A stretch of 56,386 bases of DNA from contig JAGRPN010000053.1 of assembly GCA_019449555.1 (NCBI GenBank), forward strand, positions 1-56,386, in the 5' to 3' direction. Source of the DNA: Ramlibacter sp. GTDB taxonomy: Bacteria > Pseudomonadota > Gammaproteobacteria > Burkholderiales > Burkholderiaceae_C. The notes under the pieces are model-generated. The model saw only the letters and a program-made list of their open reading frames with translations, had not been told where the DNA came from and did no database searches. Positions 3,198 through 56,386 of the stretch are shown here, one piece after another; the stretch's first letter is position 1, and each line of letters begins with the position of its first letter. Both the position numbers and the translations under genes were made by a program.

Positions 3198-4367
3198 ATG
3201 AAGAAAAATCTCGGCCTGCTGGCGACCTGCCAGGGACTTTATCTCACGAACAACGTCACGTTCATCGCCATCAACGGCCTGGTGGGGCTGGCGCTGGCGC
3301 CGCTCGGATGGATGGCGACCCTGCCGGTGATGGGCTATGTCGTGGGCAGCGCGATGTCCACCAATGTCGTTGCGCAGACGCAGCAGCGCTTCGGGCGCAA
3401 GGCGTCGTTCCAGGCGGGGCTGCTGGTGGCGCTGCTGTCCGCGCTGCTTTGCGCCTACGCGGCGGCGAGCCGCAACTTCTGGCTGCTTTGCTTCGCCACC
3501 GTGGTGGCCGGCTATTACAACGCCAACGCCAGCCTGTACCGTTTCGCGGCCGCCGAACTGGCCACGCCGGCCGTGCGCGAGACGGCCGTCTCGCTGGTGA
3601 TGGCCGGAGGCCTGCTCGGTGCGGTGGTCGGCCCGAACCTGGCGGCGCGCACGCGCGACCTGTCCGCTGTGCCGTTCGTGGGCGCCTATCTCGCGCTGGC
3701 GGTGGTCGCCCTGTTGGCGATGGCGCTGATGGCGTTCATCGAGTTTCCGCCCACCCCCGTGAGCACCACTTCGCATGCCGGCCGGCCGCTGGCGCAGATC
3801 ATGCGGCAGCCCGTCTTCATCGTGGCCGCGCTGTCCGGCGCCCTCGGATACGGCGTGATGAACCTGCTGATGGCCGCGACGCCGATCGCCATGCAGCAGT
3901 GCGGGCTGCCGTTCTCGGACACCGCCTTCGTGCTGGAGTGGCACGTGATCGGCATGTTCGCTCCGGGCTTCTTCACCGGCAGCCTGATCAAGCGCTTCGG
4001 ACCGCTCCCGGTCATGGGCACGGGCGTGGCGCTGAACCTGGCCTGCGTGCTGGTCGCGCTTTCGGGCGTGCAGTTGGAGCAGTTCGCGGTGGCGCTGTTC
4101 CTGCTGGGTGTCGGCTGGAATTTCCTGTTCACGGGCAGCACCACGCTCTCGCTCTCGGCCTACGGGCCCCAGGAGCGCGATCGCGCCCAAGGCGCGCTGA
4201 ACTTCTTCGTGTTCGGCACGGTCGCGGTGAGCTCGCTCGCATCGGGCGTGCTCGTCACCACGCAGGGCTGGACGCTGTTGAACTACGGCTCGCTGCTGCC
4301 GGTGGCGCTCACAGCGGCCGCGCTGCTGTGGCTCGGCCTCAAAAGCGCGCGTCCAGCCACTGCCTGA
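3198..4367 (+). CDS. MFS transporter
   Basis: A 389-aa integral membrane protein with about twelve hydrophobic segments and the major facilitator layout (two six-helix halves). The loop after helix 2 reads QQRFGRKASF, a recognisable variant of the conserved G-x-x-x-D/R-R-x-G-R/K-R MFS loop motif. The substrate cannot be told from sequence. It begins 35 bp after rsmE and its 3' end overlaps the convergent hydrolase gene by 29 bp, so the two transcripts are antisense to each other at their ends. Confidence 0.85.
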   Translation: MKKNLGLLATCQGLYLTNNVTFIAINGLVGLALAPLGWMATLPVMGYVVGSAMSTNVVAQTQQRFGRKASFQAGLLVALLSALLCAYAAASRNFWLLCFATVVAGYYNANASLYRFAAAELATPAVRETAVSLVMAGGLLGAVVGPNLAARTRDLSAVPFVGAYLALAVVALLAMALMAFIEFPPTPVSTTSHAGRPLAQIMRQPVFIVAALSGALGYGVMNLLMAATPIAMQQCGLPFSDTAFVLEWHVIGMFAPGFFTGSLIKRFGPLPVMGTGVALNLACVLVALSGVQLEQFAVALFLLGVGWNFLFTGSTTLSLSAYGPQERDRAQGALNFFVFGTVAVSSLASGVLVTTQGWTLLNYGSLLPVALTAAALLWLGLKSARPATA

Positions 4368-8002: not shown

Positions 8003-8944
8003 TCAGCGGATCGCCACGCCCCAGGGCAGCTCGCCCACGGGGATGTCGGCAATCCGCGACAGCGAACGGGTGTCGATCACGGAGACCGAATTCGAACGGC
8101 CGTTGGCCACGTAGAGTTTCGCCCCGTCGGCCGTGAGCGCCATGTTCCACGGCCGCTGGCCCACCGCGATGGTCGTGGCAACGGTGTTGGAGCCGGTGTC
8201 GATCACGGACACGCTCGCGCCCCGGCCGCTCGACACATACACCCGGGCGCCATCGGGCGCGACCACCACGCCGTTGGAAAATTCGCCCGCGCGCACGCTG
8301 GTGCGCACGCTGCGCGCGGCGACGTCGATCACGTACACGGTACTCTCGAGCTCGCAGGCGACATAGGCGTAGCGACCGTCGGGTGTGAAGCCGATGCCGC
8401 GCGGGCGATGCCCAACCGCGATCGAGCCGACCTGCCGGCGCGCCGCGACGTCGATCACGTCCACCTGGGCGGCCTCCTCGGCACTCACGTACAGCCAGCG
8501 CCCGTCCGGCGAGAACACCGCATGCTCCGGGTTCTTGCCCGTGGTGGGAATGCTGGCAACGACGGCGCCGGCCTGCGTGTCCACCAGCGCGACGGCGTTC
8601 GTTTCCTCGATCGCCGCCGCGAGCCAGCGGCCGTCGCGCGACAAGCCGATGCCCTCGGGCGACTGGCCGAGCGGAATTCGTTGCTCCACCTCGCGTCGCC
8701 CGACGTTCACCACGACCAGCCCATTGGCCGTCTGGTCGCTCAGGTACAGGCGCGCGCCATCCGGGCTGAGGGCGATGCCGCGCGGCTTCGTGCCGGCCCG
8801 CAGCTCGCCGATCGGCTTGTCGGTCGCCACGTCGATGAGGCTGACGCTGCCGGATTTTTCGTTCGATACATACGCGATCGGATCCGCCTGCGCGGCCGTG
8901 GCCCACAGCAGCAGGATCGCAACGAGGTGGCGCGGCGCGGTCAT
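8003..8944 (-). CDS. YVTN-repeat beta-propeller protein (PQQ-catabolism-associated type)
   Basis: A 313-aa predicted periplasmic protein: a short signal peptide (HLVAILLLWATAAQA) followed by about seven repeats of the YVTN/SPDG type, for example LSPDGARLYLSDQ, FSPDGRWLYVSAEE, FTPDGRYAYVACE and VAPDGARVYVSS. This is the architecture of the PQQ-dependent catabolism-associated beta-propeller family, which fits the quinoprotein dehydrogenase operon diverging 0.75 kb away. The start at 8944 overlaps the cytochrome b561 stop by 4 bp (ATGA), so the two are translationally coupled. A scaffolding or accessory role in the periplasm is inference. Confidence 0.82.
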   Translation of the reverse strand: MTAPRHLVAILLLWATAAQADPIAYVSNEKSGSVSLIDVATDKPIGELRAGTKPRGIALSPDGARLYLSDQTANGLVVVNVGRREVEQRIPLGQSPEGIGLSRDGRWLAAAIEETNAVALVDTQAGAVVASIPTTGKNPEHAVFSPDGRWLYVSAEEAAQVDVIDVAARRQVGSIAVGHRPRGIGFTPDGRYAYVACELESTVYVIDVAARSVRTSVRAGEFSNGVVVAPDGARVYVSSGRGASVSVIDTGSNTVATTIAVGQRPWNMALTADGAKLYVANGRSNSVSVIDTRSLSRIADIPVGELPWGVAIR

Positions 8945-9531
8945 CGGCGCGTCAACTCCTGGACCAGCCGCGGCAGCGCGGGCAGACCCATGCGCGCGCA
9001 CACCGGATCGCGCTTGAGCCAATGCCACAGCGCGGCCGCGATGTGCAGCGCGAGCAAGGTCATGAATAGCCACACGCCGGCGTAGTGGACGGCGGACATG
9101 AGTTCCTTGGCCGCGGGCCAGTCGCGATTCCAGTCGGGCAGCACGATGCCGAAATAGCGCACCGGATAACGCGTGAAAGTCGAGCCGAGATAACCGGACA
9201 GCGGGATCGCGAGCATGCACAGGTACAGCAGCGCGTGATTGAGCCGAGCGGCTTGCCGCTGCCACGCGGGCAGCGCACCGTGCGCGGCGACCGGATGGAT
9301 CGTGCGCCAGACGATGCGCACCAGCACCACGAGCGCGATGGTCAGGCCGATCGACTTGTGCACGTTGAACCAGCCGGCACGCAGGCCGGGCGGCGACTTC
9401 GGAATGTCGATCATCCACCAGCCCAGGGCCAGTTGCGCGAACAGCGCGGCCGCGAGCAGCCAGTGCAACGCCACCGCGAAGCGGCTGTAGCAGACCGTCG
9501 AGCTGGTGCTTTTCGCGTGCGTGCTGGACAC
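8941..9531 (-). CDS. Cytochrome b561 family membrane protein
   Basis: A 196-aa four-helix di-haem b protein of the bacterial cytochrome b561 family. Likely haem-ligand histidines are in AVALHWLLAAALF (helix 1), NVHKSIGLTIALVVL (helix 2), SAVHYAGVWLF and ALHIAAALWHWLKRD (helices 3-4). Such proteins move electrons between the quinone pool and periplasmic donors or acceptors. It is first in a two-gene minus-strand operon with the beta-propeller protein and diverges from the PQQ dehydrogenase operon. It is therefore a candidate alternative electron exit or entry point for that system. Confidence 0.88.
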   Translation of the reverse strand: MSSTHAKSTSSTVCYSRFAVALHWLLAAALFAQLALGWWMIDIPKSPPGLRAGWFNVHKSIGLTIALVVLVRIVWRTIHPVAAHGALPAWQRQAARLNHALLYLCMLAIPLSGYLGSTFTRYPVRYFGIVLPDWNRDWPAAKELMSAVHYAGVWLFMTLLALHIAAALWHWLKRDPVCARMGLPALPRLVQELTRR

Positions 9532-9690
9532 GAGTTACCGATCGCAAAGAGGGCCAGCATGATGCCCCAGATTTGAACGCGCTGTGTAAACTGAATCGCA
9601 CAAAACACAGCGGTTCGCGCCGCTGGTACAGGGAGCGCGCCGCCAGGCGCGAGTGAGCTGGGGCTTTGTCGACTCTTGTCTGGAGATTGG
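9532..9690. promoter_or_regulatory. Divergent promoter region, b561/propeller versus PQQ-dehydrogenase operon
   Basis: This 159-bp gap separates the two divergent transcription units. It contains an inverted repeat CTGTGT (9582-9587) and ACACAG (9605-9610) with 17 bp between the arms, a candidate site for a dimeric regulator able to control both sides. The dehydrogenase start at 9691 has a tggaga ribosome site at 9681-9686. No confident -35/-10 pair was recognised. Confidence 0.45.
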
Positions 9691-11463
9691 ATGAAGCGCA
9701 CTTTGCTTGCGATCGCTGCGGGACTCTGGCTGTCGGCCCTGGCGCTGGCCCAGACCGCCGACGACGGCCAATGGACGATGCCGGCCAAGAACTACGCCAG
9801 CACGCGCTACAGCAGCCTCGACCAGATCAACGCATCCAACGTCGGCCAGCTCAAGCCCGCATTCACTTTCTCGACCGGTCTCGCGCGCGGACACGAGGCG
9901 GCGCCGCTCGTGGTGGACAACACGATGTACATCGTCGGCCCGTATCCGAACCCGGTGTTCGCGCTCGACCTCACCAAGCCGGGCGCGCCGCTCAAGTGGA
10001 AGTTCGAGCCCGGCCCGGAAGCGAGTTCGCAGGGCGTGGCCTGCTGCGACACCGTCAACCGCGGAGCGGTGTACTCGAAGGGGCGGCTGTTCTTCAACAC
10101 GCTGGACAACCAGACGATCGCGCTGGACGCGAGGACCGGGCGCGAGATCTGGCGCGCCAAGCTGGGCGACATCAAGCTGGGCGAGAGCATGACGATGGCC
10201 CCGCTGGTGGTGAAGGACAAGGTGCTGGTGGGCAACAGCGGCGGCGAATTCGGCGTGCGCGGCTGGCTCACCGCGCTCGACGCGGGCACCGGCAGGATTG
10301 CCTGGCGCGCGTACAGCACCGGCCCCGACAAGGACGTGTTGATCGGCCCCAACTTCAAGCCGTTCTATGCGTCCGACCGCGGCTCCGACCTGGGCGTGAA
10401 GACCTGGCCGCCCGAAGCATGGAAGATCGGCGGCGGCACGGTGTGGGGCTGGATCTCGTACGACCCGGAGCTGGACCTGATCTACTACGGCACCGCGAAC
10501 CCCGGCCCCTGGAATCCAGAGCAGCGGCCCGGCGACAACAAGTGGACGTCCGGCATCTTCGCGCGCAAGCCCGATACCGGCGAGGCGATCTGGTTCTACC
10601 AGTTCAGCCCGCACGACCTGCACGACTACGACGGCGTGAACGAGAACGTGCTGATCGACGCGGAGATCGGCGGAGCGGCCCGCAAGCTGCTGCTGCATCC
10701 TGACCGAAACGGCTATATCTACGCGATGGACCGCGCTACCGGACAGGTGCTGTCGGCGACCGCGTTTGCGCACATCACCACGTCGCAGGGCGTCGACCTG
10801 CAGACCGGCGCCCTCAGGTACAACCCGGCCAAGGACTCGCGCGGGGGCGAGAGTGTCCGCAGCATCTGCCCGGCTTCGCCCGGAGCCAAGGATTGGCAAC
10901 CCTCGGCCTGGTCACCGCGCACCCGGCTGCTGTACCTGCCCCACCAGAACCTGTGCCAGGACGCGCAGACGTCGCAAGTGAGCTACATCGCCGGCACGCC
11001 CTACGTCGGGGCCGACCTCAAGATGTACGCGGGCCCCGGCGGTCACCGGGGCGTGTTCACCGCGTGGGACCCGGTGGCCGGCCGCAAGGTCTGGGAAATA
11101 CCGGAAAACTTTCCGGTGTGGAGCGGCGCGCTGGTGACCGCCGGCGACGTGGTCTTCTACGGCACGATGGACGGCTGGCTCAAGGCCGTGGATGCAAGGA
11201 GCGGCAAGCAGTTGTGGCAGTTCAAGACCGTGTCCGGCGTGATCGGGCAGCCGGTGTCCTACCGGGGCCCCGACGGCAAGCAGTACATCGCGGTGCTGGC
11301 CGGCGTCGGCGGCTGGGCCGGTGCCGTGGTCGCGGCCAACCTCGACGCCCGCGACGGTACCGCCGCGGGCGGTTTCGCCAATGCGATGAAGGACCTGGCG
11401 GCCGCGACCAAGGCGGGCGGCATGCTCTACGTGTTCGCATTGCCGCAGGCGGGGGCACGCTGA
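9691..11463 (+). CDS. PQQ-dependent alcohol dehydrogenase, lanthanide-type motif
   Basis: A 590-aa periplasmic quinoprotein of the methanol/ethanol dehydrogenase family (eight-bladed propeller). The start at 9691 gives a clean signal peptide (MKRTLLAIAAGLWLSALALA) behind a tggaga site; a TTG 15 bp upstream is less likely. Family marks: adjacent cysteines C118-C119 (GVACCDTVNRG) that form the disulfide near PQQ, the W-motif repeats, and GDNKWTSGIF before the active site. The catalytic segment reads HDLHDYDGVN: D312 is the catalytic Asp, and D314 two residues on is the extra Asp that marks lanthanide-dependent XoxF/PedH-type enzymes (Ca enzymes have Ala or Ser there). The substrate (methanol or another alcohol) is not decided by sequence. 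It is first of eight genes running to 17752, coupled to the next by TGATG. Confidence 0.9.
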   Translation: MKRTLLAIAAGLWLSALALAQTADDGQWTMPAKNYASTRYSSLDQINASNVGQLKPAFTFSTGLARGHEAAPLVVDNTMYIVGPYPNPVFALDLTKPGAPLKWKFEPGPEASSQGVACCDTVNRGAVYSKGRLFFNTLDNQTIALDARTGREIWRAKLGDIKLGESMTMAPLVVKDKVLVGNSGGEFGVRGWLTALDAGTGRIAWRAYSTGPDKDVLIGPNFKPFYASDRGSDLGVKTWPPEAWKIGGGTVWGWISYDPELDLIYYGTANPGPWNPEQRPGDNKWTSGIFARKPDTGEAIWFYQFSPHDLHDYDGVNENVLIDAEIGGAARKLLLHPDRNGYIYAMDRATGQVLSATAFAHITTSQGVDLQTGALRYNPAKDSRGGESVRSICPASPGAKDWQPSAWSPRTRLLYLPHQNLCQDAQTSQVSYIAGTPYVGADLKMYAGPGGHRGVFTAWDPVAGRKVWEIPENFPVWSGALVTAGDVVFYGTMDGWLKAVDARSGKQLWQFKTVSGVIGQPVSYRGPDGKQYIAVLAGVGGWAGAVVAANLDARDGTAAGGFANAMKDLAAATKAGGMLYVFALPQAGAR

Positions 11464-12850: not shown

Positions 12851-13932
12851 TGCGTGACCTGGACCGCTTCATGCTGCTGCGCCTGCTGGAGCGGTTCATG
12901 CTCGTGGTGCTGCTCCTCGTCTTCATGTTCTTCGCGGCAGGCTACGCCTGGGCCGCTACGCCGCTGCCGCAGGCGCCGCACAACGCGCTCGACGCGATGG
13001 GCCCGCAGGCCGCACATATTGTCGACCTGTGGCGCATCTTCCTGTGGGTCTGCACCGCAGTGTTCGTGGCTATCCTCGCGGGCCTGGCGTATGTGCTGTG
13101 GCGCCGTCCCCGCGCGGCCAACGACACGCCGCCCGACCTGTCCAGCGTCAATCGGGCCGAGCCGCGCACCCGCCGGAACGTGACCGGTGCGGTGGCGGCT
13201 TCGGTGCTGCTGCTGCTCGCGCTGATCGTCTCGAGCGTTTTTACCGACCGCGCCCTGGCCCGGCTGCCCCTGGTCGACGCGGTCAACATCGAGGTGACCG
13301 CGCACCAGTGGTGGTGGACCGCGCGCTACGTCAACGGCGGCCCGTCCGAGAGCTTCGAGACGGCCAACGAGATCCACATCCCGGTCGGCCGGCCCGTGGT
13401 CATGAAGCTCAAGGCCGACGACGTCATCCACAGCCTGTGGGTGCCCAACCTCGCGGGAAAGAAGGACCTCATCCCCGGCCGCACGGCCCTGATGGAACTC
13501 CGGGCCGACCAGCCGGGCGTTTATCGCGGCCAATGCGCGGAGTTCTGCGGTTACCAGCACGCGCTGATGGGCTTGCTGGTCACGGCCGATCCGCCGGCGC
13601 AGTACGAGGCGTGGCAACAGTCGCAGCGCGCACCGGCCGCGCAGCCGGCCGACGCGCGCGCCCAGCGCGGCAAGGCGGTGTTCGAGTCCACCGCCTGCGC
13701 CATGTGCCATTCGATCCAGGGCACCCTGGCCCAGGGCCGGCATGCGCCGGACCTCACGCATCTGGCCAGCCGGCAGACGCTGGCCGCCGGCACGCTGCCC
13801 AACAACCCGCAGGCGCTGGGCGCCTGGATCACGGATCCCCAGATCTACAAGCCCGGAAACAACATGCCGAAGGTCCCCATGTCGCCGCAGGATCTCGACG
13901 CGCTCGTCGCTTACCTCGGGAGCCTAAAATGA
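12850..13932 (+). CDS. ctaC: Cytochrome c oxidase subunit II with fused cytochrome c domain (caa3 type)
   Basis: A 360-aa subunit II. Two N-terminal membrane helices follow an unusual hydrophobic leader (residues 9-36). The periplasmic cupredoxin domain carries the CuA ligands H194 (IHSLWVPN), C229, C233, H237 and M240 (CAEFCGYQHALM). A C-terminal haem c domain is fused on, with CAMCH at 283-287 and a Met-containing PKVPMSPQD near the end. AHQWWW before the CuA domain is the usual aromatic patch for electron entry. It is the electron acceptor of the oxidase, fed in this operon by the preceding lipoprotein cytochrome. It is coupled by overlap to both neighbours. Confidence 0.93.
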   Translation: MRDLDRFMLLRLLERFMLVVLLLVFMFFAAGYAWAATPLPQAPHNALDAMGPQAAHIVDLWRIFLWVCTAVFVAILAGLAYVLWRRPRAANDTPPDLSSVNRAEPRTRRNVTGAVAASVLLLLALIVSSVFTDRALARLPLVDAVNIEVTAHQWWWTARYVNGGPSESFETANEIHIPVGRPVVMKLKADDVIHSLWVPNLAGKKDLIPGRTALMELRADQPGVYRGQCAEFCGYQHALMGLLVTADPPAQYEAWQQSQRAPAAQPADARAQRGKAVFESTACAMCHSIQGTLAQGRHAPDLTHLASRQTLAAGTLPNNPQALGAWITDPQIYKPGNNMPKVPMSPQDLDALVAYLGSLK

Positions 13933-50989: not shown

Positions 50990-51190
50990 TCATGGACGAG
51001 GGCATCGCGATCCGTGAGTTGCGGGCTTCAACTCCAGACCCTCGAGTGCCGCACGCAGTTGCGGCCCCTTTAGCCTGCCCAACAGCGCCTTGCCGATGGA
51101 GCTCGAATGTAGCGGCTTGAGCTCACGGGGCTTGGCCGAATAGCGGATCGGACGCGGGCGTTCCACCGCATCGCCTTGCCGCTTGCCCAG
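50990..51190 (-). pseudogene. IclR-family regulator fragment
   Basis: The minus-strand frame ending at the TGA 50990-50992 encodes a C-terminal-like piece of an IclR effector domain: VERPRPIRYSAKPRELKPLH, then SSSIGKALLGRLKGPQLRAA. The HSSSIGKALL block is typical of the IclR ligand domain. No DNA-binding domain or start is found; it breaks off toward 51190. A relic of a gene once beside gyrB. Confidence 0.5.
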
Positions 51191-51275
51191 GGCGATACCC
51201 CTGCGGGTACATCCGGCGCTCGGCTTTGGTGAGCTACTCGTTGAACCTCGATCAGCTGAGCAGCTGCAATTGGGG

Positions 51276-51432
51276 TGTTGGCGCCGCTGTCAGATTGAGC
51301 CACTGTGCCAAAATTTCCGTGAACCGCCTGCTGAGGGCGGCCTGCTTGGCGCGGACTTCCGGCGCATTCGGTTGGCGCAGTTAATCTCGGTACACCCCTT
51401 AGTACTGGCTCAATCTGACAGCGAAGCCAACA
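51276..51432. repeat. 27-bp inverted-repeat element
   Basis: TGTTGGCGCCGCTGTCAGAT.. (51276-51302) and its reverse complement at 51406-51432 match at 25 of 27 positions, with 18 uninterrupted bases (CGCTGTCAGATTGAGCCA). They flank a 103-bp centre with no coding sense. It looks like a non-autonomous element or the collapsed ends of an insertion sequence, in the decayed zone between gyrB and the island. No target-site duplication was recognised. Confidence 0.7.
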
Positions 51433-51483
51433 GGCTGTGAACAGGTTCCGACCGTTTCCGCACCCGCCCCTGAGCGCCGATCC

Positions 51484-51829
51484 AATTCTGAACAATCGCA
51501 CACTCCCCAGACAACGGCAATGCGCCCGCCTAGGTCACGCAACTGGCGCCGCATCATCCTGTCGCGCTCCACATTGGCAGCGACCGGTTGGTTTTCGGGT
51601 CCGCGGCGAAACGGCAACCCTGATGCCGATGCCAGAAGCTGCCGTGGACAAACACACTGCCTTAAAGCTTGGAAATGCCAAGCCAGGCGATCCCGGCAGC
51701 GATCGCACGTGCAGGCGAATATCCCATCGCTCGCGCGAACGCCGCCTACCGAAGCCGCTTCTCTGACTGGGTGACTTTGCTTCGGATTGCCGGCATGTAG
51801 CGGCGCCGCGCCGGCGTTGGCTCAGTCAT
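51484..51829 (-). pseudogene. Decayed very-short-patch-repair endonuclease gene (vsr)
   Basis: The ATG at 51829 opens MTEPTPARRRYMPAIRSKVT, like the Vsr N-terminus, then meets a TAG at 51746-51748. The middle of Vsr continues in a second frame (DIRLHVRSLPGSPGLAFPSF). The active-site region FVHGSFWHRHQGCRFAADPK returns to the first frame after a TAA. The C-terminal part (ERDRMMRRQLRDLGGRIAVV) is in the second frame again. At least three frameshifts plus stops and a short deletion mean no active protein. Vsr normally corrects T:G mismatches from deaminated 5-methylcytosine and accompanies C5-methyltransferases such as the one at the right edge. Confidence 0.8.
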
Positions 51830-51857
51830 TTCGCGCCCGACTTCACGTAACGGGCGC

Positions 51858-51905
51858 TTGGTGTGCATAACATATCTGCTATATTACAGTTATGTGACTC
51901 ACATA
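51858..51905 (+). promoter_or_regulatory. Promoter and palindromic operators of the GHKL operon
   Basis: A promoter TTGGTG (51858-51863), 16-bp spacer, TATATT (51880-51885) fits sigma-70. CATAAC (51866-51871) and GTTATG (51889-51894) form an inverted repeat that spans the -10. Just after it, TATGTGACTCACATA (51891-51905) is a perfect palindrome of 7-bp arms around one base, lying in the start-of-transcription region and ending 8 bp before the first gene. Two overlapping dyads suggest tight repression, as in restriction-modification control regions. Confidence 0.6.
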
Positions 51906-51913
51906 GGACGCCC

Positions 51914-52135
51914 ATGCGAGATAAACGCGGAAAGTTCGTCGAGCTTGCCACCAACAGGGTAAGCCGAACTATCAAGGATCTGCGACTCATAGGTAACCTC
52001 TCGAACCGGTCGGCCTACGAGTACACGGAGGACGACGTGCGAAAGATCGTGAAGACCCTGCAGCGTGAACTCGATGTCATGAAGCTCCGGTTCGCGGGTG
52101 GTGCCCAGGGGGCCGATCGTGATTTCAGTCTCTGA
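51914..52135 (+). CDS. Small helical protein opening the GHKL operon
   Basis: A 73-aa protein with basic N-terminus (MRDKRGKFVELATNRVSRTI) and a long helical segment to about residue 58 (YTEDDVRKIVKTLQRELDVM). It has no recognisable HTH or enzyme motif. The ATG at 51914 is preferred over an upstream GTG in the operator. It ends 18 bp before the ATPase gene, which has a strong ggagg site. Small helical proteins of similar look accompany mobile restriction-like operons; role (regulator, adaptor or DNA binder) is unknown. Confidence 0.75.
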   Translation: MRDKRGKFVELATNRVSRTIKDLRLIGNLSNRSAYEYTEDDVRKIVKTLQRELDVMKLRFAGGAQGADRDFSL

Positions 52136-52153
52136 TCCAGGGAGGAAAACAAC

Positions 52154-53974
52154 ATGCAGCTGAGCTTCAGACGGCAGGATGACGGCGAGATGGAACGCCC
52201 GCCAACTCAGCGGGACCAGTTCAACAATGACGATGTTGAACTTGTGGACGCCTTGGTGCGGGAGACGCTGCAAAATTCCCTTGATGCAGGCACCAATGGC
52301 GAGGTGATCCGTGTCCGCTTCGCACTTCACCAGCCCACTGAAGCAGAGTGCACAGCACTGCTGAGTTACCTAGATCTTGAGCAGTTGAAGGCGCACCTCA
52401 CTGCCTGCTCGCTCCTGCCAGAGAACCTGGACCTGGAGAAGCCAAACCTCCTCCTAATCGAGGATTTCGGAACCACCGGTCTGACAGGCAGCTGGAACAG
52501 TTGGGACAAGGAGCCGTTCTGCGACTTCTGGCGTCGCATGGGGAAATCGCACAAGGGCGGCAAGTCACTCGGTCGATGGGGCCTTGGCAAGCTCGTCTTC
52601 TCCAGCGCGTCGCATGCGCGTGTCTTCTTCGGGTTCACTGTGCGCGCCGGCGACCCCGGACAACCGCTGCTGATGGGGCAGGCCGTGCTGACCACCCATG
52701 AGCTGGGGGTGGAAAGATTTGACTCCCACGGCTTCTTCTGCGTTCTCAATGAAAAGGGTATGCAGTTGCCAGTCACCGAGAAAGCGGAACTTGCGAAGTT
52801 CGAAGAGGCATGCGGCCTCACCCGTACCAACCGGCCAGGCCTGTCAATCGTCGTCCCATACGTCCAGAGTACGGTCACAGAACAACGAATCATCCAAGCC
52901 ACTCTCCGGAACTACTTCTTCCCCATTTTGCTCGGTCGCTTGGTGGTGACGGTTGGCGCAGTGGTTATAGATGCAGCATCATTCGCGCCGCTCGCAAAGG
53001 CACATGGCGGCTCGCGCTTTGCGACTGGTGGGCTTGCTCAGTTTATTTCTTCAATGCGGGCGGTACGAAACGGAGAAGTGCAGCCACACGCGTTGCCTGC
53101 AAATTGGCAGAGCGTCGGTATGGCAACAGCTCTGGGCGATCATGCCAAGACACTGCGTGAACGCTATCAGAAGGGAGAGTGTCTGTGCATCCGTGCACGA
53201 CTCTTGCTGAAGCAGAAGGACGGAACCGAGATGCAATCGAAGTTCGATCTGTTTCTTCAGAAGACTGCCGACGACAGCGACACGCTTTTCGTTCGCGACA
53301 CGATCGTGTTGCCCGCAGAAGCGAAGTACTTCCGAGGCCACAATGTACTGGCTGCACTCGTTGCCGACGACAGACCCATCTGCGCCTTCCTCGGCGACGC
53401 CGAGAACCCTGCCCACACCAACTGGTCGGCAACGGCAGAGAAGGTAACGGCGGAGTGGCGAAACCCTGGCGCGAGGCTCAAGGAGATTCGTAGCGCACTC
53501 CAGCAGGTCTTCGACGAAATCGTCTCCTCAATTGAGACGGTCGACCCTAACGCCTTAATCGACTTCTTCTCCGCAAAGGCTGAGGCCGGTGCACGCGGAG
53601 CGCGGCCAAAGGGACCAATTGTTCGCCCACCGAAGATCGACATAGCGAAGCCCAGGGAAAAGGCCTATCGTCTAGTGCGACTGAAAGGCGGCTTCGCAAT
53701 CCGAGGCGCAACGTCTCTCACGCCCGATCAATTGCCGCTGGTAATCCGGGTCCGAGCAGCGTACGACGTGTTGCGAGGTAATCCGTTCTCGAAGCACGAT
53801 CCGCTCGACTTTGATTTTTTGAAGAACGAACTGGAAATAGTCAGCAAGGATGCGATCACCACCGCTCTGGGTCCAAACACCCTGACGATCAAGGCAAGCA
53901 GCCGCGACTTTGACGTTGCAGTCAGCGGTTTTGACGTTAAACGTGACCTTATCATCGACGCGGCGAGGCAATAA
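52154..53974 (+). CDS. GHKL-superfamily ATPase (MutL/MORC/Hsp90-like) of a putative defence operon
   Basis: A 606-aa protein whose first 150 residues carry all GHKL ATP-binding motifs: N-box with E37, N41 and D44 (ETLQNSLDAG), G1 motif D104-F-G106-T-T-G109 (IEDFGTTG), and G2 motif G140-R-W-G143-L-G145-K146. Residues about 150-330 look like a transducer domain (S5-like) with a basic patch. The rest (330-606) is mixed alpha/beta with a Lys/Arg-rich segment near 490-510 and matches nothing I know. No TOPRIM, HATPase-DHp or MutL endonuclease motif is seen, so it is not gyrase, MutL or a histidine kinase. It overlaps the next gene by TAATG. GHKL ATPases of this solitary type occur in restriction-like systems with cytosine methylases. 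Confidence 0.85.
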   Translation: MQLSFRRQDDGEMERPPTQRDQFNNDDVELVDALVRETLQNSLDAGTNGEVIRVRFALHQPTEAECTALLSYLDLEQLKAHLTACSLLPENLDLEKPNLLLIEDFGTTGLTGSWNSWDKEPFCDFWRRMGKSHKGGKSLGRWGLGKLVFSSASHARVFFGFTVRAGDPGQPLLMGQAVLTTHELGVERFDSHGFFCVLNEKGMQLPVTEKAELAKFEEACGLTRTNRPGLSIVVPYVQSTVTEQRIIQATLRNYFFPILLGRLVVTVGAVVIDAASFAPLAKAHGGSRFATGGLAQFISSMRAVRNGEVQPHALPANWQSVGMATALGDHAKTLRERYQKGECLCIRARLLLKQKDGTEMQSKFDLFLQKTADDSDTLFVRDTIVLPAEAKYFRGHNVLAALVADDRPICAFLGDAENPAHTNWSATAEKVTAEWRNPGARLKEIRSALQQVFDEIVSSIETVDPNALIDFFSAKAEAGARGARPKGPIVRPPKIDIAKPREKAYRLVRLKGGFAIRGATSLTPDQLPLVIRVRAAYDVLRGNPFSKHDPLDFDFLKNELEIVSKDAITTALGPNTLTIKASSRDFDVAVSGFDVKRDLIIDAARQ

Positions 53975-54741
53975 TGGGATTTCGAATCAATTCAACCGGT
54001 CGCAAGCGGATACCGCGTGAGCACATTCGAATGCGGCTAGTAAGTCAGGGTGAAGCACAGCCGCCTTCGTTCACAGCAGATATCCAGTTGCCTGCAGAGT
54101 TAAAGCTTGACCCTGCCGCGAAGGTGTACGTCGAACCGTACGTGAAGAGCTCGTCGATGCGATTTGACTTCGGCACGGTCGCGGCAATGAAGCATCCCGA
54201 AGCATGCATACTTACCGACATTGATGCGGGCGCAACCATACTCTTTCGGATCAAGGTCGTCGATGAGGCCGCTGAAGTCGGCCGCATATTGGCATCCGCT
54301 AACGGCATTCGTCCTGAAGATGATGCAGATGGCGATGATAGAAGACCGCTTCTGCCAGTCAGAAGCGCCAACCTCGGGGAAGAGGTTTGGCAGCTGCAGA
54401 CCGACAAGGAAGCCGGTCCGTCGCTGATCGTGAACAGTCGCGTGCCCGATCTCATCGAAACGCTCAAGCGCGACGTGGTTCTTCAGGGCGTCATCTATCC
54501 CGAGGTTGTGCGCCAGCTGGCACGCGAAGTGTTCAGACCAGACAATGACCTAGGCGACGAAACCGATTGGGTCATGGATTGGAAGGACTGGTTTGCAGAT
54601 CAGCTTGGCCGCGACATTGACGATGGCGAAGCCGAGGATATCGATGCAGTCGCTTCACTGGCCGACGAGATCGCCGCCGCGTTCGCAAACAAGAGCAGAT
54701 TCGCTTCTAACGTGATCGCTGCGCGACGCGCGATTAGTTGA
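53974..54741 (+). CDS. Uncharacterised protein of the GHKL operon (255 aa)
   Basis: No family recognised. The N-terminal 110 residues look beta-rich (KVYVEPYVKSSSMRFDFGTV, AGATILFRIKVVDEAAEVGR) followed by an Asp-rich loop (EDDADGDDRRP), then a helical C-terminal half with several acidic clusters (DWVMDWKDWFADQLGRDIDD). No catalytic motif is evident. It shares its first base with the ATPase stop (TAATG), so the two proteins are made together, suggesting a stable complex. Confidence 0.75.
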   Translation: MGFRINSTGRKRIPREHIRMRLVSQGEAQPPSFTADIQLPAELKLDPAAKVYVEPYVKSSSMRFDFGTVAAMKHPEACILTDIDAGATILFRIKVVDEAAEVGRILASANGIRPEDDADGDDRRPLLPVRSANLGEEVWQLQTDKEAGPSLIVNSRVPDLIETLKRDVVLQGVIYPEVVRQLAREVFRPDNDLGDETDWVMDWKDWFADQLGRDIDDGEAEDIDAVASLADEIAAAFANKSRFASNVIAARRAIS

Positions 54742-54761
54742 AATTCACGAAGACAATTATT

Positions 54762-55496
54762 ATGGCGCTGGTTCGCGTTCTGAATACCGATGGCTTGACG
54801 AAGTTCGCCGAGTACCTGACGCTCTTGCGGGTGAGTCCAGGGGCGTCACCACCGACAAGTCTTCTTGAAGATGGGCGATACTCCGATCCGTTTGAAAGCG
54901 AAGTGGCTCTGGAGCCGCGCTCGTTCACTTCCGCATTCGAGATCGGCGAACATATGGTCGCGCTCTTCACAGGCTGCGAAGATCGCCTCATTTCCAGGAA
55001 TCACGGCCTCTGGTCATGGCTCGCCCTGTTCTTCTTCGATCAGTTGTGCAAGCCGGACGCGCAGGGACAACGCAAGCCGCTTGAGAACGCTGTCTACATT
55101 CTGGAAGAGCGGTTCAGCTTTCGCAGGTACTACCGTCACGCAGTCAGAACCCCGTGGATGGCCGTGAAGGAGCACGGTGAGCATGCGAAGGTGCTGTTGC
55201 TGACTAGTGGCAAGGGAACCCGAACCGATATCAACGAACAACTCGGGGCCTATCAGGACCTCTTCGCAAACAAGACCATCATCGCGTCGGCGTATGCCAT
55301 GTACTTCGACAAGCACCAGCAGAAGCCGCGTAAGGGCGCGGGTGGTAAGGGTGGCGGCTCTCCCCGCCGACTGGCCAACATTGCAAGACAGTTGGAGCTG
55401 ACCTACGACCTTCAGGAGTGCTCGCCAGCAAAGTTCCTGGCATTGCTGCCTAAGGAATTCAAGGGTTGGGTTAGACAGGTCAGTCCCCAAACCTGA
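54762..55496 (+). CDS. Uncharacterised protein of the GHKL operon (244 aa)
   Basis: A 244-aa protein; a TTG start 24 bp upstream overlaps the previous stop, but the ATG at 54762 gives the likely N-terminus (MALVRVLNTDGLTKFAEYL). The sequence is mostly helical with aromatic patches (GLWSWLALFFFDQLCK, YYRHAVRTPWM) and a basic Gly/Lys loop (KPRKGAGGKGGG) near 205. It may belong to an uncharacterised family such as DUF6339; I am not sure. It lacks nuclease motifs I can read, though it could be a divergent effector. It is the last gene of the operon. Confidence 0.7.
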   Translation: MALVRVLNTDGLTKFAEYLTLLRVSPGASPPTSLLEDGRYSDPFESEVALEPRSFTSAFEIGEHMVALFTGCEDRLISRNHGLWSWLALFFFDQLCKPDAQGQRKPLENAVYILEERFSFRRYYRHAVRTPWMAVKEHGEHAKVLLLTSGKGTRTDINEQLGAYQDLFANKTIIASAYAMYFDKHQQKPRKGAGGKGGGSPRRLANIARQLELTYDLQECSPAKFLALLPKEFKGWVRQVSPQT

Positions 55497-55843
55497 GTGA
55501 ACGCCACGAAGTCGTCGTCTATGCCCATGCTCGCCGCACCAGGTACGGCGAGACCGAGAAACTGGACATCTCGATATGTACCGGTGTTTCCGAACAAAAG
55601 ATCAGCGGAAAATGCGCACTAGCGTGCTGGCTATGTGCCCCATCGAAGAGGTTTCTCGGAATCTTGTTACCGAGCCGGGGCGTTAGATGCAGGCCGCCAG
55701 CGCTGGCGTTTGTTGCCGTAGTAAACAAACAGTCCGGTTTCCCCTAGCGAATCGGGCCAAGTGGGATCTGAAAAGCTTTGTATTGAGCGCGCGTATGTCT
55801 CGTCTACGATCAGATTAGCCGCGGCAAAGATTGTAGAGATCAT
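55497..55843. other. Convergent intergenic region with an unexplained minus-strand coding-like segment
   Basis: A 347-bp gap between the end of the GHKL operon and the end of the methyltransferase gene. On the minus strand, bases 55627-55412 have a frame reading SADLLFGNTGTYRDVQFLGL and onward (AVPGAASMGIDDDFVAFTQ). It has no upstream continuation because of a stop just before, and it overlaps the end of the plus gene. It has protein-like composition but no family that I can name. No terminator or RNA gene is clear. Confidence 0.5.
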
Positions 55844-56386
55844 TTAAGCCATTCGCGGGCGCTTGGTTTGGTTGCTGCCGATCCACTTAAAGATGGCGGT
55901 CATTACGTCGGAACAGACTCCGTTGCCGCATAGCTTGACCTTCTCGCGGCGGGTGCCGTGCGGGAGCTTGTGATCCGTCCCGCCACCCATGGCCTTTGAC
56001 AGTTCGTTCGGCTGAAGCATTCGCATATATGGCACGTCCTTTTCCCACGTCACGAGGGCGAATCGATCGACGGTGGTCACGGTACGTAATGGCGCGTCGA
56101 GCGTTTGCCATCCGCCGGCGTAATCAGAGCCGTAGTACACGATGATGAAAGGCTTCTTGCGTCCTAGTTCGGCAATGGCACGCTGAGCGCGCTCCAGCGT
56201 TGGCTTCGCGCGGCTTGGCTGCTCAAGCGGTGTGGTTGCGTATGCCGCATCCCAATCAATGATGTCTTTTGCAGAGAGCCTCTTTCCGGTGACGAGTTTA
56301 AGTAGCGTCTCTTTCGCGACGGACGTGCCTTTGCGATCACATACCAGGAACATCCTCTTCCGTGCTTGGGCGGAGCCAAAATCGGC
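55844..56386 (-). CDS. C5-cytosine DNA methyltransferase, C-terminal part (cut by window edge)
   Basis: The minus-strand frame runs from the right edge (56386) to the stop at 55844, 180 residues. It begins DFGSAQARKRMFLVCDR, the motif VIII region (Q-x-R-x-R) of C5-methyltransferases. It continues through a short variable region, then LRTVTTVDRFALVT (motif IX) and LCGNGVCSDVMTAIFKWI (motif X). Motifs I-VI with the catalytic Cys lie outside. The internal ATG at 56353 is not the true start. It faces the GHKL operon; together with the decayed vsr it indicates a restriction-modification-type neighbourhood. Confidence 0.9.
   Translation of the reverse strand, partial: ADFGSAQARKRMFLVCDRKGTSVAKETLLKLVTGKRLSAKDIIDWDAAYATTPLEQPSRAKPTLERAQRAIAELGRKKPFIIVYYGSDYAGGWQTLDAPLRTVTTVDRFALVTWEKDVPYMRMLQPNELSKAMGGGTDHKLPHGTRREKVKLCGNGVCSDVMTAIFKWIGSNQTKRPRMA

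Follow-up and report, generated by a model that had tools for sequence, protein, structure and literature searches.

A horizontally acquired operon with a paraMORC2-like ATPase behind gyrB of Ramlibacter sp., likely linked to restriction-modification

What kind of system is encoded by the compact operon that directly follows the genes dnaA, dnaN and gyrB in a Ramlibacter sp. genome? The sequence studied, the whole 56,386-nt contig JAGRPN010000053.1 of assembly GCA_019449555.1 (458 contigs), is referred to below as the window; the names of the three upstream genes were assigned from their translations and are presumably correct. The position beside these genes, given in an earlier note on this DNA, is as described, and the operon consists of a small gene followed by a trio, GHKL-g3-g4:

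51914-52135, plus strand: 73-aa protein P0001, small partner of GHKL ATPases (open reading frame, ORF)
52154-53974, plus strand: GHKL ATPase P0002, 606 aa, paraMORC2-like, PADLOC PDC-M33A (ORF; profile E 1.1e-26; motifs)
53974-54741, plus strand: g3, P0003, 255 aa (ORF; predicted N-terminal beta-sandwich and C-terminal helices)
54762-55496, plus strand: g4, P0004, 244 aa from ATG (ORF; remote relative of DUF6339)

The four plus-strand ORFs of 73, 606, 255 and 244 aa were confirmed, and the start of g4 is backed by its relatives, many of which open with M..R.LN..G. TAATG overlaps had been claimed for the junctions; one exists, between GHKL and g3, while at small/GHKL and g3/g4 the genes are separated by 18 and 20 bases. 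As judged from its gene neighbours, the cluster likely has a restriction-linked defence role. The reading developed below, which we regard as an even call, is that the small protein, a paraMORC2-type GHKL ATPase, g3 and g4 form the core of an acquired island linked to restriction-modification (R-M) and would work as a DNA-clamp defence.

The ATPase can be placed by its motifs. In a 91-row alignment of relatives the N-box residues E37, N41 and D44 are kept in all 88 rows that have no gap at these positions, D104, G109, G140, G143 and G145 in all 91, and G106 in 79 of 91; the residues named in the earlier note as a full GHKL ATP site are correct and conserved. These intact ATP-binding motifs, expected of a paraMORC2, are accompanied by ExxxH (E417, H421) and R381, present in 91 of the 91 aligned relatives. 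Iyer, Abhiman and Aravind (2008, PMC2292703) define paraMORC2 by a conserved ExxxH within the S5-fold domain that follows the GHKL domain, GhXhhpXXRhl being the S5 motif of MORC proper; by the ExxxH description the 606-aa protein is classed as paraMORC2-like. It also matches the PADLOC profile PDC-M33A (E 1.1e-26) in two stretches, the better covering positions 30-281 of the 627-position model. It had no match in Pfam or NCBIfam, the MutL C-terminal dimerisation/endonuclease region included, and when solved structures were searched by sequence, neither the ATPase, g3 and g4 nor two further GHKL-type proteins gave a credible relative. Three relatives have long GHKL ORFs of 864, 905 and 1470 aa (L037 442-3036, L038 9170-11887 and L057 7475-11887; the usual length is 600-680 aa), of which the one in L038 gave an empty Pfam scan. 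In a Sediminibacterium metagenome-assembled genome (MAG) a second GHKL-looking protein of 617 aa, recognised by eye, separates Dcm from the paraMORC trio (L084 8141-9994).

Operons of this kind are already known. In the account of Iyer et al. paraMORCs belong to R-M operons that also encode methylases, Vsr and helicases, and the paraMORC2/MORC operons described there share with the present cluster the ExxxH GHKL ATPase, Dcm and Vsr nearby, and sporadic occurrence in bacteria and archaea (PMC2292703). Both neighbours, a DNA methylase and Vsr, are found in the Ramlibacter genome itself, on two contigs joined by synteny. The ATPase, in turn, is already a PADLOC candidate as PDC-M33A, so that the operon is not of unknown type, as had been supposed. 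PDC-M33 is itself a computed phage-defence candidate, and the likeness concerns its component A: no component matched P0001, P0003 or P0004 at E up to 10, nor any of 62 g4 or 72 g3 proteins at E up to 0.01, and in L014, a distant relative, the third gene showed a weak match to PDC-M33C (E 0.012). The PADLOC check proposed in the earlier note thus recovered the ATPase and none of its three companions. Since g3 and g4 lie outside the curated families in the libraries scanned, a PADLOC-type finder would detect the ATPase alone. The names PDC-M33 and DUF6339 were not found in a full-text literature search.

Examination of gene neighbourhoods, also proposed earlier, revealed a conserved trio: g3 accompanies the ATPase gene in 83 of 91 loci and g4 in 79, in unchanged order and across many phyla. 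Within the 45 well-flanked loci (at least 5 kb on both sides) Dcm or Vsr is located nearby in 29, Vsr in 27, which bears out the recurrent link with a cytosine methylase and Vsr given in the earlier note. A stricter count, with three duplicates dropped and flanks taken from the whole block, gives 26 of 42, and in 21 of these 26 loci the nearest Dcm or Vsr lies no more than 2 kb from the trio, often on the same strand in a single run with it. As a background, which was taken for Vsr, this gene is present anywhere in no more than 10 of 94 whole genomes of the class, including the window's own genome and the ATPase-family carriers G040 and G046. Other neighbours are the endonucleases EcoRII-C (10 of 91 loci) and MvaI/BcnI (4 of 91), nSTAND3-like and DUF2357/PDDEXK_7 proteins in L046, and a helicase with MZB and NERD in L029. 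Because the linked nucleases and methylase types vary, the neighbourhoods suggest a general module with exchangeable partners. The presence of Vsr in 27 of 45 loci is also what would be expected of a dedicated very-short-patch repair unit, in which the trio would replace MutL as the partner of Vsr and limit C-to-T mutation at Dcm sites, having no direct restriction role; Iyer et al. pair MutL with the nuclease Vsr for very short patch repair (PMC2292703). This alternative is decidedly unlikely, as restriction enzymes and other nucleases share the neighbourhoods, full trios exist without Dcm and Vsr, and the distant relative L017 has an AIPR gene but neither Vsr nor Dcm within the 13.2 kb retrieved.

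In the window, R-M genes adjoin the operon on both sides:

55844-56386, minus strand: C-terminal part of a C5-cytosine methylase, ended by the contig end (PF00145, E 2.4e-7; DrmMII, E 4.4e-44)
about 51477-51838, minus strand: decayed vsr remnant just upstream of the operon (Pfam Vsr match and tblastn pieces)

As the contig is the whole window, the methylase gene beside the operon is severed by the contig end. Contig C82 ends (L021 17381-18112) in the genome's only other PF00145 match, an N-terminal methylase part, which stands immediately behind a stop-free vsr that is separate from the decayed remnant. The C-terminal and N-terminal parts align to residues 157-320 and 11-96, respectively, of the methylase of L036, with 43-44% identity; as these are different stretches of one protein, the simplest view is that both parts belong to a single gene from whose middle about 60 residues are missing. 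Downstream of gyrB, sequence from C82 recurs in reverse order in the relatives L130, L131, L132 and L134; L135 and L136 give shorter matches, and the stretches fetched of L129, L133 and L137 give none. From the methylase halves and this synteny the order of the island is probably vsr remnant - small - GHKL - g3 - g4 - (convergent) dcm - vsr. In the remnant, which is split over more than one frame, the Pfam Vsr match at 51620-51811 contains one TAG and one TAA, and tblastn with the Vsr proteins of relatives covers 51838-51477 in pieces (best E 1.9e-13); the split frames and in-frame stops indicate that an earlier vsr decayed here. No DISARM protein was recognised: P0001-P0004 had no Drm match, and for DrmA, DrmB and DrmC the C82 end was judged from ORFs only; the sole DISARM-like score is that of the methylase part, as DrmMII.

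The ATPase gene is sporadic, not core. In a search over 61 genomes, 36 of the others congeneric, it was present in the window's genome alone and absent from the 60 others. The operon has the lower GC content claimed earlier, 57.0% as against 61.9-71.1% in 3.6-kb windows over 1-51000, and the third-position GC of its genes is 61-70% as against 89-93% for dnaA, dnaN and gyrB, both signs of acquisition; on sequence grounds the four-gene cluster can be regarded as horizontally acquired. That GHKL proteins include Hsp90 and histidine kinases could hint at a chromosomal regulator or chaperone outside defence; for a sporadic, acquired gene with R-M neighbours this is hardly credible. The operon's own promoter and palindromes, reported in the earlier note, were not confirmed: on both strands of 51000-56386 two promoter-like sites were found as against 1.8 expected and five terminator-like sites as against 5.0 expected, which is chance level, and no promoter-like site lies ahead of the operon on the plus strand. 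An Rfam search of the operon region gave no match. A CATAAC...GTTATG pair at 51866-51894, ahead of the operon, was noticed by eye only.

The DNA after gyrB was read in nine congeners, drawn from the twelve best gyrB-end matches among the 36, and in five of the nine this site carries restriction or defence genes (L129, L130, L131, L132 and L133). These are Dcm, Vsr, DndB and an NgoMIV restriction enzyme in G388; Dcm, Vsr, AAA and DUF2357/PDDEXK_7 proteins in G402; an HNH gene in G373; Fic and a Schlafen-type helicase in G371; and a Schlafen-type helicase in G377. In G392, G383, G380 and G393 no defence genes were recognised, Pfam having been run on one protein (183 aa, G392; no match). In a Comamonadaceae MAG (L024) small-GHKL-g3-g4-Dcm likewise stands directly behind gyrB; the closest relative, L022 (72% identity over aligned columns), is sited elsewhere. 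A repeat of the gyrB 3' end was sought as an integration mark in the window and the fetched part of C82, with best matches of 12-17 bases. In G388 (L129, gyrB on the plus strand) 50 bases at 13203-13252, about 12.5 kb downstream, repeat the gyrB 3' end with an 84% match and are possibly the trace of an integration site. E. coli genomes contained no DNA similar to the cluster. A phage collection yielded one distant match (39% coverage) in an unverified faecal scaffold that also carries a Dcm gene.

In the clamp-defence reading Dcm would mark self DNA, and Vsr would mend the T:G mismatches left by deamination of 5-methylcytosine. The ATPase would dimerise on ATP, as MutL and MORC do, and form a DNA clamp; g3 (beta-sandwich) and g4 (DUF6339-like), its putative subunits, would read the target or hold the clamp. 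On unmarked foreign DNA the loaded clamp could license cutting by a linked nuclease, such as the EcoRII-C, MvaI/BcnI, DUF2357/PDDEXK_7 or NERD-helicase proteins of relatives; without a linked nuclease, as in the present island, the clamp itself might block or compact DNA. DNA looping by MORCs and paraMORCs in R-M systems has been proposed (PMC2292703), and C. elegans MORC-1 topologically entraps and condenses DNA (PMC8277788).

Several points weigh against this reading. Its clamp step is drawn by analogy from the distant paralogues MutL and MORC. The island is without a recognised restriction enzyme: none was found in the window operon by Pfam and PADLOC, nor by eye at the C82 end beyond Vsr, with a dcm gap that is unsequenced, and an endonuclease of an unfamiliar kind would escape such a survey. 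By the profiles used, 16 of the 45 well-flanked loci are without Dcm or Vsr, ten of them with the full trio, and several clades of relatives show neither gene, so that a linked methylase is not obligatory and the trio may also act without one. A scan of viral contigs matched 46 stretches and confirmed no relative, and the text of the papers searched gave no name for the GHKL-g3-g4 trio. The earlier note had held that a core chromosomal gene free of methylase or defence links would tell against an anti-phage module; the 16 loci partly show such a lack of links, but the gene is sporadic. The full trios without Dcm or Vsr fit an alternative that we consider very unlikely, namely that the trio carries out defence or silencing independently, in islands that simply often house Dcm and Vsr as well. 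The methylase type indeed varies between close relatives (among the methylases collected, only that of L036, not that of L022, matches the window's C-terminal part at E 1e-3), yet the short distances in 21 of the 26 linked loci, often in same-strand runs, argue against mere co-residence.

The same full trios (10 of the 45 well-flanked loci, and whole clades) would be expected to act alone, and this raises the question of an effector within the trio. Of the two proteins first described as unassigned, g4 has since proved a remote relative of DUF6339, as profile comparison indicates, and g3 stays outside the curated families scanned. For g4 and DUF6339 (PF19866) hhalign gave a profile-profile probability of 94.8 (E 5.4e-8); the kinship emerges with profiles only, being invisible with one L014 sequence (probability 2.2), and none of the 62 g4 proteins had a DUF6339 Pfam match at E 0.01. 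For g3 an N-terminal beta-sandwich and C-terminal helices are predicted with a mean pLDDT of 91.6. Scans of P0001-P0004 against Pfam, NCBIfam and PHROGs gave nothing useful, and a match of P0003 to fn3_4 (E 0.13) was not used as evidence. Either g4 or g3 might be a cryptic nuclease or toxin switched on by the ATPase, the trio being a self-contained effector system; this is unlikely, though a serious contender. The columns invariant in 62 g4 sequences, G11, H126, Y181, R203 and Q210, could, speculatively, be compatible with a metal-independent active site. Against this, Pfam and PADLOC matches of the 62 g4 proteins include no nuclease family, the 72 g3 proteins gave three stray one-member matches in PADLOC (one pPIWI_RE_Y at E 0.0068; Pfam was run for P0003 alone), no acidic D/E..K signature is present among the invariant columns of g3 or g4, the structure searches offered no credible relative, and g4 looks mostly helical by eye. 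The earlier statement that the four proteins hold no readable nuclease motif stands, with neither a nuclease family nor a motif read in them. A tested anti-phage protein with a GHKL ATPase domain is the Type I-D Shedu protein VcSduA (paraMORC3-type); there the nuclease domain, DUF4263, is fused to the ATPase, whereas none was recognised in the present cluster (PMC12137116).

MORC ATPases are agents of DNA silencing and compaction in animals and plants; what has been written on their bacterial relatives since 2008 draws mainly on gene neighbourhoods. A bolder version of the clamp-defence reading, in itself unlikely, is that small-GHKL-g3-g4 would be a nuclease-free ATP-driven clamp that silences or compacts unmarked DNA, a bacterial precursor of MORC silencing which freely swaps methylase, Vsr and restriction-enzyme partners, with the protein of about 75 aa as a loading or assembly subunit common to several GHKL families. 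A compact four-gene paraMORC system without a helicase or visible nuclease would be a tractable test of paraMORC action alone, and the small protein, placed ahead of GHKL genes of differing kinds, gives biochemistry a simple handle.

This small protein tends to be followed by GHKL-type genes, which are of several kinds; there are exceptions, and in the present family, where it stands ahead of GHKL in 11 of 91 loci (duplicates L009 and L028 counted), it is optional. It was found in 7 of 369 genomes of the class, those of the window, G360, G283, G328, G038, G091 and G191. In G360 it is accompanied by a GHKL of the same family as the window's, and in G283 (L149) the small gene is followed by a 103-aa ORF (3931-4242) and then by GHKL, g3 and g4. 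In G328, G038 and G091 it precedes mutually related proteins of 805-854 aa, with GHKL-like motifs seen by eye only and not found by Pfam HATPase_c_3; in G191 there is no GHKL in about 4 kb downstream. No description of the pairing was found in the text of the papers searched. Two matches of P0001, to the arginine repressor (E 0.0016, 18.5 bits against a cut-off of 184) and to Mu transposase (E 0.12, sub-threshold), were not used as evidence.

A survey of plasmids gave matches to the small-protein family in 14 records, of which 11 were read; the others, H7, H9 and H12, look like near-duplicates of these. With the profile made here, the gene that follows was identified as GHKL in L102, L103, L105 and L152; it is HATPase_c_3-like below the cut-off in L106 and L107 (L108 is 85% identical to L106), and GHKL-like in L104 by an N-box seen by eye only, with no Pfam family matched. 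In L150 (an insertion sequence), L151 and L153 no GHKL follows. The plasmid cassettes small-GHKL-X-DUF6339 of Priestia (L102), Planococcus (L103) and Arthrobacter (L152) have the same order as the present cluster, with homologous small and GHKL proteins; their last gene, DUF6339, is remote kin of g4, while X has no detectable relation to g3 (hhalign probability 2.1). Restriction genes adjoin them: a MutH/Sau3AI-type endonuclease and dcm in L102, an AlwI-type endonuclease, vsr and dcm in L103, and dcm, vsr and a type II endonuclease in L152; dcm and vsr also lie beside the cassette of L105. Small-type proteins stand ahead of differing GHKL-like ATPases in L106, L107, L108, L145, L147 and L148, followed in L106 and L108 by an ATP-binding protein (OLD/AbiEii-like in L106) and a UvrD helicase gene. 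It is also worth mentioning that in the Arthrobacter agilis plasmid (L152) a gene annotated as Shedu nuclease, at 8936-10081, comes after the dcm-vsr-REase-small-GHKL-X-DUF6339 block.

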